Shown: positions 789 through 45,417 of the stretch, piece after piece
Numbering within the stretch: the stretch's first letter is position 1
Layout of the letters: each line of letters starts with the position of its first letter
Source: Planctomycetaceae bacterium
Lineage (GTDB): Bacteria; Planctomycetota; Planctomycetia; Planctomycetales; Planctomycetaceae
Assembly: GCA_947476295.1 (NCBI GenBank)
Contig: CANJQC010000024.1
Location: forward strand, 1 to 51,759
DNA: 51,759 nucleotides
Direction of reading: 5' to 3'
The notes under the pieces: generated by a model
Told to the model about the DNA's origin: nothing
What the model saw: only the letters and a program-made list of their open reading frames with translations
Database searches by the model: none
Position numbers and translations under genes: made by a program

Positions 789-3700
789 ATGACCGTGCGA
801 GTGCTGAGTTTCCTGTCGATCGTGGTTTGTGGATTCATAACGGATGGTTTGATTGCGGACGAAGCTGCGAAGGGCATACTCCTTGCCGGCGCAGCGATGG
901 TAGATGTGACACCTGCGCAGTTTCCGGTCATCGTTAATGGCATGGTCGAAGAACGTACGGCGACGATGGCCCACGATGTGCTGATGTCCCGAGCGCTGGT
1001 GCTGGACGATGGAAAGGAGCGTATAGCCATCGTCGTGGTCGATAGTTTGATGCTGACTCGATCCATGTTGGACGATGCCAAAGACCAGGCTCAGAAACTG
1101 ACGGGGATTCCGACGAATCGCATATTGATCTCGGCGACACATACCCATTCGGCTCCGTCAGCCATGCCATGCTTGGGAAGTCGCGTTGATCCTGAGTACG
1201 CTCAGTTCCTGCCCGGACAGATTGTCCGCAGCATTGTCCACGCGAACGAAAAACTGACTCCGGCCAAGGTTGGCTGGGCGGTGGTGACCGACGATCGGCA
1301 CAACAATTGTCGTCGCTGGATCTTTCGATCTGATCGAATGACGATGGCAGATCCATTTGGGCAGCACAATGTGCGGGCTCATATGCATCCCGGGCATATG
1401 AGCCCCAATCATATCGGTCCATCAGGGCCTGCGGATACAGATCTGACAGTGGTCTCAGTGAAGACGACCGACGACAAACCATTGGCCGTGCTGGCCAACT
1501 ATGCGATGCACTACTACGGTTCGCCGCTTGTGTCAGGAGACGTCTGCGGCCGATTTGGATTGAAGTTTGCAGAGCTCATCGGCGCGACGAATCAGCAGCC
1601 AGGGTTTGTTGGAATTCTGTCACAGGGCACCAGTGGCGACAGCATGTGGATGGACTACAGCCAGCCCGCTCAACCGAATGATCTTGATGCTTATGTGAAG
1701 GCCTTGGCGGAAGGTGCGGTGCGGGCTTGTGAATCGATTCAATACCGATCCGACATCACGCTCGCGATGGCGGAAGAAATGCTGAAACTGAAACGGCGAA
1801 CTCCTGATGAGGCTCGTCTCAAATGGGCTCACGAACTCGTCGCCAAGGTCGGTGATCGCCTGCCGGGAGGCTGGTCGGAAGTGTATGCATTCGAGCAATT
1901 GCGATTGCATGAGGATCCAACGGCGGAACTCAAGCTGCAGGCGATTCGCATTGGTGATTTTGGCATCACAGCGATTCCCGACGAAGTCTTCGGCATTACG
2001 GGCATTAAACTGAAGAACCGCAGTCCTCTCAAAGCCACAATGAACATCGAACTCGCCAACGGCGCCGAGGGCTATATTCCTCCGCCGGAGCAACATAAAC
2101 TCGGCGGATACACCACATGGCCAGCTCGTACGGCAGGGTTGGAAGTGCAGGCAGAGCCACAGATCGTGGAAGCGCTGACACGCCTGCTGGAGCAGGTCGC
2201 TGGAAAGCCTCGGCGCGAAACCATCGACGAACAACACGCATACGCGAAGGCCGTTGTGGAATCGAAGCCAAAGGCGTTCTGGCGGATGGGGGAGATTGAT
2301 TCTGTAGGGTGGGACCAGCTGCCGCCAGGCAGCGCCGGCCCACGGAATTCAGGCACCACAAATGGTGGGCCGGCGCTCGCGTTGCTCGCTGGTCCCACCC
2401 TACCGAATGCTGCTCGCTGTGCGGATGCACTTGGCGACAATCACGCCCTCTACGAAGACGGCATCGCGTTTTATCTGCCGGGACCTAAGGGTGACGGGCT
2501 CAATCAGCATCCCCGAGGCAATCGCGCTGCCCACTTTGCAGGTGGGCGAGTTGCCGCGAAAGTTCCAAAACTTGGCAAAGTTTACAGCGTCGAATGCTGG
2601 GTCTGGAACGGTTTCCCGAACAGCGAGCGAGCCGTCACGGGCTACTTCGTTTCCCGAGGTTCAAATGGCGATGCAATCGCGGCGGGTGATCATCTGGGTA
2701 TCGGTGGGAATTACATGAATCAGGGCTGGGACGGCAAGCTGCTCCTGTTCAACGGCAATGATCGAAACGAATCGCTCACCGGTCGCACGGTTCTGGAAAC
2801 TCGGACGTGGCACCATGTGGCGTTTGTGCGCAGCGATCGCCACGTCACGGTTTATCTGAATGGCCAGCCCAAACCGGAAATTGAAGGTGACCTTGAGCCC
2901 ACATTTTCTGAGAGCAACGACGACATTTTCCTTGGTGGCCGAAATGATCGCCTGTTCGGACTGGAGGGGCGGCTCGATGAAGTGGCGTTGTATGATCGAG
3001 CCTTGACTGCCGACGAGGTTGCCGGGCATTATGCATCCGCAAGACTCAGGAACCCTCTGCAGGTGGGAGAATCGCAGCCAATACCCAATCCGCCACCTCT
3101 GTCGCCGGAAGAGTCACTCAAGGCAGCACATGTGCGAGAGGGGTATGAGTTACAGTTGGTCGTATCCGAGCCGCTGGTGATCGACCCTGTCGCCATTGAC
3201 TGGGGACCGGATGGAAAACTGTGGGTCGCCGAGATGGCCGATTATCCATCCGGGATGGACAACAACGGGCAGCCCGGTGGGCGCATTCGATTTCTCGAGG
3301 ACAAAGACAAAGACGGGAAATATGAAACATCGACCGTGCTGCTAAACGACATCCCTTTTCCCACCGGCGTAATGGCGTGGGGCAAGGGAATCATTGTCAC
3401 TGCCGCTCCGGAAATCTTTTACGCAGAAGACACCAGTGGCGACGGCAAAGCGGACATCCGCAAGACGCTGTTTTCAGGATTTCGTGAAGGCAATCAGCAG
3501 CTGCGAGTCAACGGTCCGCGCTGGGGACTGGATAACTGGATCCATTGTGCAAGCGGCAGTCATCATGCTGGCTACGGAGCAGACAGTCAAATCCTGTCGC
3601 ATGGGACGAACCAGAAGTTCGCTATTGGAAGTCGGGACTTTCGCATCCGGCCGGACGAGGGTCTGATCGATCCGCAAAGTGGTCCGTCGCAGTTTGGCCG

Positions 3701-6158
3701 TAATCGAGATGCCTGGGGCAACTGGTTCGGTGAGCAGAATAGTTATCCTTTGTGGCACTACGTTCTGGAAGATCCTTACATCCGCCGCAATTCTCATTTC
3801 GCTCCGCCCGACCCACGTCATCTGATGACGCCATCGAATCCACCGGTTTATGCGGCGACACCTCCTGAAAAACGTTTTCACAGCTTTGAGGAATCCGGAC
3901 GCTACACTTCCGCCTGCTCGGGGATGGTGTATCTGGATGAGCTGTTGTTTGGAGCCGAAAGCAGTTCCAGCCTCCCGACCACGGCTTCCGCCGAAGGCGG
4001 ACCGCTGCGAGAGAAGGCCAACGAACTAGGGGCCGATCAGCCACATGCCTCCCGGGGGCGCGACGAAGTCGAGAAGTCCTTTCCGGCAGAAAGGACCTAC
4101 TTGCGCGGCCTAGGCGTCCAGCACACCTTCACCTGCGAACCGTTCAGCAATCTCGTACAGCACAATCTCCTCATCGATGACGGTGTGAGTTTTCGACTTG
4201 AACGCGATCCTGCGGAAGCTGATGCGAAAACCGATTTCTTTGCGTCCGAAGATCGTTGGTGCCGACCGGTCATGGTTCGCACCGGCCCCGATGGGGCACT
4301 TTGGATTGTGGATATGTATCGGTACATGATTGAGCATCCACAATGGCTGCCCAAAGAGGGGCAGGATGAACTGCGACCGTACTTTCGATCGGGCGATGAT
4401 CGAGGCCGCATTTATCGCATCGTGCCAAAGACGACCAATAGCAAGACTGGCGAGCATGACGGCGTTAGCGACCCCAAAAATTTCCCGCGCCTGGATCATC
4501 TATCGAAAACTGAACTCGTCGCATCACTTGAAAGCTCCAACGGTTGGCAACGTGATACAGCTCAGCGGCTGCTGGTAATGGCGCAGGACAAATCGGTGGT
4601 CGCCGATCTTGAACTGCTCGTCACTGAGAGTCCGCAACCGCTGGCTCGACTGCACGCATTGTGTACGCTCGATGGCTTGAATGCACTGACGCCGAAGATT
4701 GTCGAATCGGCTTTGCGGGATGACCACCCCGGCGTTCGACGGCACGCGGTTCGGCTGACTCCGGCTGCGAGAGTGCCACTCGCGTCTCTGGTGACCATGA
4801 CCAAAGATCCAAACGCCAAAGTGCGACTGCAGCTGGCATGTGTTGCGGGAGAGTTCAGGGAAGGACTGGCGGGGAAGATATTGGGTGAGCTGCTGGTCTT
4901 GGACACCGATCCGTACCTGCGAGCTGCCGTGATTAGTTCGTTGAATTCGGAAAACATCAAAGATGTGATTGATCGGTTTGGTGCGATCGTGCAACAGGAC
5001 GCAGCGCAGCACGAGCCGGGCGTCACCGAAATGCCGGGCTTTTCCGCCAGTGATCGCAATGAATTCAGCAGCATTTTGTTTGGACAAGTGGCAGCAATTG
5101 CCAATGACGATGACATCATTCGATCGATCCTGATGACCTGCGATGAATCCGGCAAGCGATTGTATTCATGGCAAATGATGTCACTGGCGAACATGCTGGA
5201 TCGCCTCAATGCTCGTCGCTGGTCGGTGTCAGACCACATGAAACCGAAAGAGCACTCTCAGGTCACCGCAGCAATTCAGATTGCCAGACGAGTCGCTGCA
5301 GATTCGTCTGCCGAGGAAATTCTTCGTGTCGCTGCAATACCGCTGCTGTTGCGAGGTTCGGAAGCCGATGAAGACCGAGCGGTGTTGCGGTCATTGCTTT
5401 CCCCGCAGATTCCTGTCAGCGTTCAGGAAGCTACCATTCGGCATCTCGGTCTGCAATCGGACGAGTCTGTCGCAGATATCCTGCTGACTGGCTGGTCGTC
5501 GCATTCGCCCTTACTTCGTACACAGATACTGACTGTGCTCTCGAGTCGCGGTGAATGGGTGATTCGCCTTGTGGCTCAGATGGAATCAGGCTCCGTTGCC
5601 GCTGCGGAAATCGATGCCTCCATGCGACAGCGACTGTTGACAACTCGCGATATCGCTATCCGTGAGCGACTCGAAAAGGTCTTCACGTCCGAAACATCGG
5701 CCGATCGCAAAGCCATAATGGAATCTTTTCAGCCCGCATTGAAACTCACCGGCGATGCGGCTCGCGGAGCCCTCATGTTTGGTAAGAAATGTGCCAACTG
5801 CCACAAGCAGGGCGGTATCGGCCACGAAGTTGGCCCGAATCTCGCATCGCTCACGACGCGAACTCCGGAGTCCCTCTTCACCGCCATCCTCGACCCCAGC
5901 GCTGCCGTGGAAGCCAAATATCTGAACTTCGTCGTCGCCACCACCGCCGGCCGCAGTGTCATCGGCATGCTCTCCACCGAAACCGGCAGCAGTATCACGC
6001 TGCTTGCCGCGGAAGGCAAAACCGAATCCATCCTCCGCACCGACATCGAAGAACTCCGCAGCACCGGCAAATCTCTGATGCCGGACGGGGTCGAAAAGGA
6101 CCTGACGCAGCAGGACATTGCGGATGTGATTGAGTACGTGAGGACGCTGCACAAGTAG
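789..6158 (+). CDS. Giant exported fusion: ceramidase-like + LamG + PVC dehydrogenase/propeller + HEAT + cytochrome c
   Basis: A 1789-aa protein with a signal peptide (residues 1-24, ending GLIADEA). Residues about 28-460 match neutral/alkaline non-lysosomal ceramidases: ATHTHSAP at 116-123 carries the zinc-binding histidines, and GTSGDS lies in the region of the catalytic serine. Residues about 540-750 form a LamG/concanavalin-like sandwich (WHHVAFVRSD, GRLDEVALYDRAL). Residues about 776-1210 match the planctomycete membrane-bound dehydrogenase/beta-propeller domain (DWGPDGKLWVAEM, GPDGALWIVDMYR). HEAT-like repeats follow, then a C-terminal haem-binding domain with CANCH at 1668-1672. Export to the envelope and oxidation or hydrolysis of a lipid or glycan-like substrate is inferred. 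Two stretches (residues about 506-538 and 1057-1107) are repeat-derived insertions. The ATG at 789 follows GGGA at 777-780. Confidence 0.85.
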   Translation: MTVRVLSFLSIVVCGFITDGLIADEAAKGILLAGAAMVDVTPAQFPVIVNGMVEERTATMAHDVLMSRALVLDDGKERIAIVVVDSLMLTRSMLDDAKDQAQKLTGIPTNRILISATHTHSAPSAMPCLGSRVDPEYAQFLPGQIVRSIVHANEKLTPAKVGWAVVTDDRHNNCRRWIFRSDRMTMADPFGQHNVRAHMHPGHMSPNHIGPSGPADTDLTVVSVKTTDDKPLAVLANYAMHYYGSPLVSGDVCGRFGLKFAELIGATNQQPGFVGILSQGTSGDSMWMDYSQPAQPNDLDAYVKALAEGAVRACESIQYRSDITLAMAEEMLKLKRRTPDEARLKWAHELVAKVGDRLPGGWSEVYAFEQLRLHEDPTAELKLQAIRIGDFGITAIPDEVFGITGIKLKNRSPLKATMNIELANGAEGYIPPPEQHKLGGYTTWPARTAGLEVQAEPQIVEALTRLLEQVAGKPRRETIDEQHAYAKAVVESKPKAFWRMGEIDSVGWDQLPPGSAGPRNSGTTNGGPALALLAGPTLPNAARCADALGDNHALYEDGIAFYLPGPKGDGLNQHPRGNRAAHFAGGRVAAKVPKLGKVYSVECWVWNGFPNSERAVTGYFVSRGSNGDAIAAGDHLGIGGNYMNQGWDGKLLLFNGNDRNESLTGRTVLETRTWHHVAFVRSDRHVTVYLNGQPKPEIEGDLEPTFSESNDDIFLGGRNDRLFGLEGRLDEVALYDRALTADEVAGHYASARLRNPLQVGESQPIPNPPPLSPEESLKAAHVREGYELQLVVSEPLVIDPVAIDWGPDGKLWVAEMADYPSGMDNNGQPGGRIRFLEDKDKDGKYETSTVLLNDIPFPTGVMAWGKGIIVTAAPEIFYAEDTSGDGKADIRKTLFSGFREGNQQLRVNGPRWGLDNWIHCASGSHHAGYGADSQILSHGTNQKFAIGSRDFRIRPDEGLIDPQSGPSQFGRNRDAWGNWFGEQNSYPLWHYVLEDPYIRRNSHFAPPDPRHLMTPSNPPVYAATPPEKRFHSFEESGRYTSACSGMVYLDELLFGAESSSSLPTTASAEGGPLREKANELGADQPHASRGRDEVEKSFPAERTYLRGLGVQHTFTCEPFSNLVQHNLLIDDGVSFRLERDPAEADAKTDFFASEDRWCRPVMVRTGPDGALWIVDMYRYMIEHPQWLPKEGQDELRPYFRSGDDRGRIYRIVPKTTNSKTGEHDGVSDPKNFPRLDHLSKTELVASLESSNGWQRDTAQRLLVMAQDKSVVADLELLVTESPQPLARLHALCTLDGLNALTPKIVESALRDDHPGVRRHAVRLTPAARVPLASLVTMTKDPNAKVRLQLACVAGEFREGLAGKILGELLVLDTDPYLRAAVISSLNSENIKDVIDRFGAIVQQDAAQHEPGVTEMPGFSASDRNEFSSILFGQVAAIANDDDIIRSILMTCDESGKRLYSWQMMSLANMLDRLNARRWSVSDHMKPKEHSQVTAAIQIARRVAADSSAEEILRVAAIPLLLRGSEADEDRAVLRSLLSPQIPVSVQEATIRHLGLQSDESVADILLTGWSSHSPLLRTQILTVLSSRGEWVIRLVAQMESGSVAAAEIDASMRQRLLTTRDIAIRERLEKVFTSETSADRKAIMESFQPALKLTGDAARGALMFGKKCANCHKQGGIGHEVGPNLASLTTRTPESLFTAILDPSAAVEAKYLNFVVATTAGRSVIGMLSTETGSSITLLAAEGKTESILRTDIEELRSTGKSLMPDGVEKDLTQQDIADVIEYVRTLHK
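2304..2403. repeat. Palindromic repeat, family 2, in frame inside the fusion gene
   Basis: Perfect 16-nt outer arms (GTAGGGTGGGACCAGC at 2304-2319, its complement at 2388-2403) and perfect 12-nt inner arms (GCGCCGGCCCAC at 2332-2343, complement at 2365-2376). The element encodes residues about 506-538, a Gly/Pro/Ala-rich stretch between the ceramidase-like and LamG domains, and the reading frame stays open across it. Confidence 0.85.
3958..4110. repeat. Palindromic repeat, family 3, in frame inside the fusion gene
   Basis: Contains the hairpin GTCCTTTC-CGGCA-GAAAGGAC within 4074-4102 and a smaller one, TCCGCC-GAA-GGCGGA, near 3990. The first is shared, in the opposite orientation, with the intergenic copy at 36384-36413, where a comparable second hairpin (TTCGCC...GGCGAA) follows. 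Here it encodes residues about 1057-1107, which interrupt the conserved step from DELLFG to HTFTCEP in the propeller domain. Exact borders are uncertain. Confidence 0.6.
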
Positions 6159-24986: not shown

Positions 24987-25538
24987 GATTCATCCGGAAG
25001 CGTATCACGGTAGAACACGACGCCGTTAGCGCAGACCAATGGACCGGCCTCCTGATCAACTGGGACAGCGGGAGTCTACAGGGCGCCATTATGATTGTCA
25101 CCTGGCTTTCATGTTCAGGGATCGGCCAATCGAAAAATCGAGAATCTCCAACGTAAGCACCCGGTCAGGAATATGTTGGCATAAATCGCTTAACGGCGAG
25201 CCGCAGGCGTAGGCGGAAGCACGCCGGATTCGCCTACGCCTGCGGCTCGCCTTAAACGAAAAAACTTATGCATGAGTGCTTACGTCGGCGACACTCAGCG
25301 ATGCTGTGCGGGCACTTCAGCAGTTCCTGCCGGAGATCAGGACGCCGTAATGCGGTAGGCAAGTTTCCGGGCGAATGAGGACGGCGTGATACGAAAGTCG
25401 CTGTTGTGTGAGGCTGTCCTTCGTCGTAAAAAGCGACGAAGGATGTCTCCATTCTGCACGAATTTTCATCAACGCACTTTGGCAGGGATCACCTCACGCT
25501 CCTGTGACGGAAGCGTGTATAGTCCGATTCCGGCCACT
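24987..25538. other. Intergenic region with nested palindrome
   Basis: About 550 bp without an intact gene. It contains the nested palindrome at 25151-25285. From about 25380 onward the sequence may be degraded coding DNA belonging to the broken MscS-family gene, but the homology is too weak to place. Confidence 0.4.
25151..25285. mobile_element. MITE-like nested palindrome, family 6
   Basis: Terminal inverted repeat ACGTAAGCAC at 25151-25160 and its exact complement at 25276-25285 enclose a second, longer inverted repeat: 25188-25216 against 25231-25258, nearly perfect, with core GGCGAGCCGCAGGCGTAGGC. No coding capacity. A small non-autonomous element or a strong RNA/DNA hairpin are both possible. 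Confidence 0.6.
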
Positions 25539-45337: not shown

Positions 45338-45417
45338 TTTGGAAATGGGGTCAGGAACCAACTAGCCAAATGGCCAATGGGTGTTCGGCACTATTGGTTC
45401 CTGACCCCATTTCCAAA
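45338..45417. repeat. Near-perfect long palindrome, family 7 (GGGGTCAGGAACCAA)
   Basis: Perfect 24-nt inverted arms at 45338-45361 and 45394-45417, enclosing 32 nt that include GTGTTCGGCACT. It fills the infA-rnhA gap and starts 4 nt after the infA stop. A diverged copy lies at 36450-36514. Confidence 0.85.

Follow-up and report, generated by a model that had tools for sequence, protein, structure and literature searches.

An in-frame palindrome in a planctomycete gene, very probably a paired GTAG-type REP element with copies in unrelated genes

The palindrome and its host gene

The palindrome at positions 2304-2403 of the window (the whole stretch of DNA analysed, 51,759 nucleotides of a Planctomycetaceae genome) is very probably one copy of a paired GTAG-type REP (REPIN), inserted without breaking the frame of its host gene. 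The outer arms, located by an inverted-repeat search of the window, match perfectly over 16 nt (2304-2319/2388-2403), as a first-pass annotation had placed them, and when extended to 21 nt are 95% matching (2299-2319/2388-2408). The inner arms are likewise perfect, over 13 nt rather than the 12 nt first reported (2331-2343/2365-2377). The palindrome is real and far above chance expectation: folded as single-stranded DNA, the 100-mer reaches -40.1 kcal/mol, where 200 shuffles give -20.8 +/- 2.5 (z -7.6). Three trivial origins were ruled out. Chance was rejected by 100 first-order Markov simulations of the window, which yielded no 16-nt inverted repeats up to 120 bp apart and 12-nt inverted repeats at a mean of 0.35 start positions (maximum 4); an assembly artefact by the same insert, 85% identical, in the assembly of another species; and a known RNA family by the lack of any Rfam match at gathering score in the window.

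A REP unit here consists of a GTAG tag, a stem of GGTGGG(A)CC against GGCCCACC, and an apical hairpin, and two such units face each other head to head. The first unit (2304-2344, 41 nt, + strand) has its tag at 2304-2307 and the apical hairpin GCTGCC/GGCAGC. A variable centre of 19 nt follows (2345-2363), in which 7 of 19 positions differ in the sister species (G001), and the second unit (2364-2403, 40 nt, - strand) carries its tag on the - strand at 2403-2400.

The host gene (789-6158, + strand) encodes 1789 aa, with a weak N-terminal ceramidase match and matches to Laminin_G_3, DUF7133/PVC-type heme-binding, HEAT_2 and cytochrome c profiles. It had been described as a giant ceramidase-like gene; the ceramidase match is present but weak (40.7 bits, residues 33-284), and the strongest domains are DUF7133/PVC-type heme-binding, Laminin_G_3 and a heme-binding domain. 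Within this ORF the palindrome is translated as VGWDQLPPGSAGPRNSGTTNGGPALALLAGPTLP, 34 residues at 506-539, in frame as first described, the range of 506-538 given then being one residue short. The insert comes directly after the motif KPxAFWRLGEI, and homologues that lack it run from this motif straight into the laminin-G-like part. The Pfam LamG match covers residues 597-745 and begins at profile position 17 of 151. A position between two domains is thus approximate, the motif before the insert presumably being part of the LamG fold. In an AlphaFold2 model (mean pLDDT 70.7; insert present in only one other alignment row), residues 104-140, which contain the insert at 106-139, have pLDDT below 50, as do residues 22-54; this gives a slight hint that the insert may be a disordered loop. 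Annotators should note that sequences like VGWDQR..GGPALALLAGPTLR represent translated repeats rather than a protein domain.

Copies across the genome

With up to two mismatches, the 16-mer matches 58+49 sites in the genome that contains the window (G000; 5.99 Mb, 252 contigs) versus 1+3 for the reversed control, and the exact dimer pattern gives 23 dimers versus 0 in the control. The loci fetched around these matches hold at least 110 units at no fewer than 66 places, which upholds the earlier description of the element as amplified. Among the 66 places listed are 40 '+-' pairs, 24 single units and 2 triples, and among the 40 listed pairs 17 are 78 bp long and 7 are 100 bp. The GTAG tag is exact in 86 of the 110 listed units, with GCAG in 12 more, the search pattern itself having started with GTAG. 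Short units have a GGTGGG or GGTGTG stem and partly conserved flanks, and long pairs mostly combine the unit types GAGCAACGCGAGC and GGCTG..AAGCCGC.

Variation between copies keeps the stem paired. Of 140 distinct units taken from G000, G001, G004 and G005, 134 have a standard pair at the variable stem position, against a shuffle mean of 70.8 and maximum of 94; the count is uncorrected for kinship of copies and largely mirrors two subfamilies (G-C and T-A). The pair of head position 13 and tail position 6 is standard in only 57 of the 140. Apical hairpins vary yet pair (GCGGCT/AGCCGC, GTCCGC/GCGGAC, GTCTGC/GCAGAC and GTTCGC/GCGAAC, beside that of the window copy), with weak pairing in the GAGCAACGCGAGC type. 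Exact dimers number 94 in G001, 23 each in G000 and G066, 8 in G015, 4 in G005 and one each in G004, G013 and G043, with none in the remaining 111 of 119 genomes. Neither a target-site duplication nor a firm target motif was found in the listed flanks; a pyrimidine excess directly precedes GTAG in 44 of 53 long units.

Filled and empty sites of the host gene

Host residues 401-700 have matches in 102 of the 119 genomes; 30 homologue loci were fetched, and 29 of them, from a minority of these genomes, were aligned (L179, matching query residues 183-300 only, was left out). The insert is found in G000 and G001 only and is missing from 27 of the 29 aligned homologues, so that the residues are indeed absent from most of the homologues aligned, the outcome for which the first-pass annotation had proposed to look. 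Other extra residues lie at or near the site in seven of the 27 (G004, G005, G015, G006, G007, G008 and G011). The sister copy, on contig CAMAVB010000074.1 of a MAG that bears the label Candidatus Kuenenia stuttgartiensis (the next relatives include a Fuerstiella MAG), is also 100 bp long, keeps the frame and differs at 15 positions (85% identity); on its left side AAAG stands in place of the GTAG tag, and by eye its outer arms have three mismatches. Further along, the G001 host gene holds another REPIN of 100 bp (L152 2566-2665), which is absent in the window. The net inserted length varies by site, at about 108 nt in the window gene and about 75 nt in UvrA, and therefore either something other than a clean 100 bp was added on insertion or the sites have been altered since; the empty sites are too variable for the exact inserted length to be fixed.

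In-frame copies in other genes

Eight of the 66 listed places in G000 fall within a long ORF, 80 or more codons away from either end. Homologues back five in-gene cases, with the same in-frame insertion pattern in unrelated protein genes: the window gene, HypF (C100), a double-length UvrA (C154, protein assigned by NCBIfam scan), an SNF2-type helicase (C85) and a glycosyltransferase (C48). Copies in C25 (a single unit) and at C179:10214 are in ORFs without a Pfam match, and that at C179:8828 probably lies before the true start, since a signal-peptide-like stretch follows it.

The UvrA insert is present in G000 and G001 and missing from 14 other genomes with alignment over the site, which in G012 reads KKG-KTAKRKSDP-F and in G005 holds GGCGAGCGGCAGGGCGTCAGCCCTCCG, by eye close to a different repeat of G000. 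The helicase insert is common to G000 and G001 and missing from the sole other match (G013); that of the glycosyltransferase is again common to both and missing from seven closer homologues, with a short stretch resembling part of a REP unit, by eye, at the site in G004 and G015. The HypF REPIN is found in G000 only, at residues 304-337 inside the YrdC domain, and the Pfam YrdC match is split into two stretches; the residues at this site in G004 might be a worn REP. Loops that take one repeat seem to accept others too. The earlier proposal that inter-domain linkers serve as tolerated sites stands as far as tolerance within genes goes but is too narrow, because a domain is interrupted in HypF and presumably in the window gene, and loops and linkers generally are a better description.

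Elsewhere in the G001 UvrA (L262) there are more REP-derived in-frame stretches, translated VGRRGLSAAGPTLR. In two G001 copies (L227 and L234) the HypF loop is occupied by an unrelated stretch that contains GGGGAGAGGGCYGGGGTGAGGGG and matches once more in G000 locus L145.

Four of the seven 100-bp pairs listed in G000 lie well inside genes, against none of 21 pairs of 74-78 bp. Among long pairs, a length of 1 mod 3 is seen in 7 of 7 in-gene cases and 9 of 20 others (Fisher p 0.022, a post hoc comparison of small numbers). This comparison was made without single units and without pairs or triples of 115 bp or more, counted shared insertions once, drew on 53 fetched G001 dimers of the 94 exact ones, and includes the C179 ORF without a Pfam match. 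One frame per strand is closed by the TAG of the tag and another by GTGTGA.

A candidate transposase

Eleven Y1_Tnp matches were found in G000, ten of them above the family cut-off. One of these genes, at C19:47-598, sits between inverted REP units (2-42 and 616-647) on a contig that stops 1 base past the outer unit, and its protein is assigned to the NCBIfam REP-associated tyrosine transposase (RAYT) family (173.6 bits, cut-off 80). The other ten Y1_Tnp genes of G000 have no such flanking unit in the stretches fetched. The three RAYT homologues with 85-88% identity (in G001, G004 and G005) are all repeat-flanked, making four of the four closest loci. Across 30 RAYT loci, at least one GTAG-type head (up to 3 mismatches) occurs in 19 and none in 11, the distant loci being without a chance control. 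Dimers and RAYT do not coincide throughout, as dimers are present without a RAYT hit at E <= 1e-30 in G015, G066, G013 and G043, the assemblies being incomplete. We infer that the C19 RAYT is the probable mover of the element, which agrees with the biochemistry of other RAYTs, where according to one study GTAG is important and cutting takes place at CT near the REP (PMC8266576). The first-pass annotation had called the element mobile or amplified: amplification is directly seen, and mobility is suggested by the copies, the empty sites and the repeat-flanked RAYT gene together.

Another repeat, CGGCGAGCGGTTGGGCGTCAGCCCTCCG, flanks a second Y1_Tnp gene, C111:12092-12325, in inverted pairs (L072, which is G000 C111:11000-13400, and L141). 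It has 33 matches in 19 G000 loci, and UvrA contains it in frame near residues 247-305, 1701-1728 and 2060.

Proposed origin and alternatives

Taken as a whole, we regard the following account as highly likely. A REPIN of two head-to-head GTAG-tagged REP units would have entered the host gene before the split from G001, spread by a RAYT, a Y1/HuH single-strand transposase that presumably recognises the GTAG tag and hairpin. Selection would remove most coding insertions, leaving those of suitable length and frame as additional loops, about 34 residues long and with no established function. The copy in the host gene would owe its persistence to having landed in frame and free of stop codons, at a loop able to accommodate additional residues.

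In the four in-gene REPINs common to G000 and G001, frame and exact length are kept in every case. Over these copies dN is 0.074 inside versus 0.058 outside and dS is 0.129 versus 0.520, giving ratios of 0.57 versus 0.11. This hints at relaxed constraint on the inserted peptide, faintly so because the higher ratio comes mostly from the low dS inside. By gene, dS inside/outside is 0.214/1.389 in the window gene, 0.211/0.456 in UvrA, 0.127/0.235 in the glycosyltransferase and 0/0.233 in the SNF2-type helicase. Arms of the shared copies differ at 18 of 315 positions versus 13 of 76 in the centres (p 0.003). A G000-G001 comparison of intergenic copies offered one candidate with both flanks (C8:18715), which was left out as its orientation is reversed. 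Conversion, hairpin constraint or base composition could each account for the low inside dS and the smaller share of differences in the arms. It is conceivable, though rather unlikely, that the in-gene REPINs of the genus are, once inserted, kept close to the family consensus in their DNA, via conversion between copies or arms or via hairpin selection. If so, these genes would contain a stretch that evolves with the mobile DNA population and less with the gene.

The constancy of frame and length in all four shared copies, and a dN inside only slightly over that of the flanks, would also fit an inserted peptide that was recruited as a useful loop and is kept by protein-level selection. We judge this improbable, since 27 of the 29 aligned homologues manage without the insert, the same peptide type recurs in unrelated proteins, and model confidence is low at residues 104-140 of the model. 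A palindrome maintained for its RNA hairpin, by which the host transcript would be paused, stabilised or attenuated, is a poor candidate as well: the G001 copy has three outer-arm mismatches and lacks the left tag, homologues exist without the insert, and the window is without an Rfam match, even if the 180 nt around the palindrome fold as RNA at -99.5 kcal/mol (z -5.0) and differences between species are fewer in arms than in centres. Least credible, and very improbable, is a classical MITE dependent on a transposase specific for terminal inverted repeats. Single units at 24 of the 66 listed places, a tag and hairpin in every unit, a repeat-flanked RAYT gene and the lack of a duplication in the listed flanks all speak against it, even though the perfect 16-bp terminal inverted repeats and the 100-bp length would suit such an element.

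Relation to known systems

GTAG REPs with head-to-head dimers and RAYTs have been described in Planctomycetes too ('R. baltica'), and in-gene GTAG REPs have been in print since 2013, including uvrA dimers of Opitutus terrae and Thioalkalivibrio (Di Nocera et al. 2013, PMC3733652). As in that superfamily, the element described here has a GTAG end tag, a stem-loop with complementary changes, many dispersed copies often found as inverted head-to-head dimers, an association with a RAYT, and in-frame insertion. It differs from the families in the available part of that paper in sequence and genus and in having long units with an extra apical hairpin; the paper may nonetheless already include this sequence family. 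Being a GTAG-tagged REP dimer, the element has its nearest known counterpart in the GTAG REPs that Di Nocera et al. 2013 described within genes. That work already covers the essentials, and the present case is a clean new example.

The arrangement also resembles the REPINs and RAYTs of Bertels and Rainey 2011 (PMC3116915), in which two inverted REPs around a spacer form the unit and the RAYT gene is repeat-flanked. By the published definitions of REPIN and REPtron (PMC6006769, PMC3116915), the relevant feature is found here, a RAYT-family Y1 transposase flanked by the same REP. For TnpAREP, cleavage, strand transfer and excision have been demonstrated (PMC8266576), whereas the present system is known from sequence alone.

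The first-pass annotation had drawn a comparison with the palindromic elements of Rickettsia, which are likewise palindromic, repeated, in frame in unrelated genes and tolerated, and which at about 150 bp are longer than this 100-bp REPIN (PMC10969869). According to Di Nocera et al. the Rickettsia repeats carry a CGTC tag, and for repeats so tagged their study found no dedicated transposase (PMC3733652); the tag here is GTAG and not the CGTC of the R. conorii repeats. The comparison therefore holds for in-frame insertion in unrelated genes and is otherwise an analogy.

Among the open-licence papers listed for planctomycete REPs, REPINs and RAYTs and for intragenic REPs with RAYTs, none dealt with this host gene or genus. 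The present case adds, to the published REPs that have turned into protein parts, a planctomycete example with filled and empty sites within one genus. With its shared and unshared copies one can study the frequency at which such insertions are tolerated, the lengths and frames that permit it, and whether they continue to evolve as mobile DNA.

Further inverted repeats in the window

Three further inverted repeats, their arms 16 nt or longer and up to 120 bp apart, lie in the window, at 295-354, 25195-25251 and 45338-45417. The region 289-360, upstream of the host gene, holds a second GTAG-type inverted pair, GTAGCTGGAGTCGCCAGACTTCG / GTAGCCGGAGTCGCCAGACTTCG, with no other matches in the 391 kb of G000 loci examined. 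The repeat at 25195-25251 consists of GGCGAGCCGCAGGCGTAGGCG and its complement, and that at 45338-45417 is a long inverted repeat with TTGGAAATGGGGTCAGGAACCAA-like arms.
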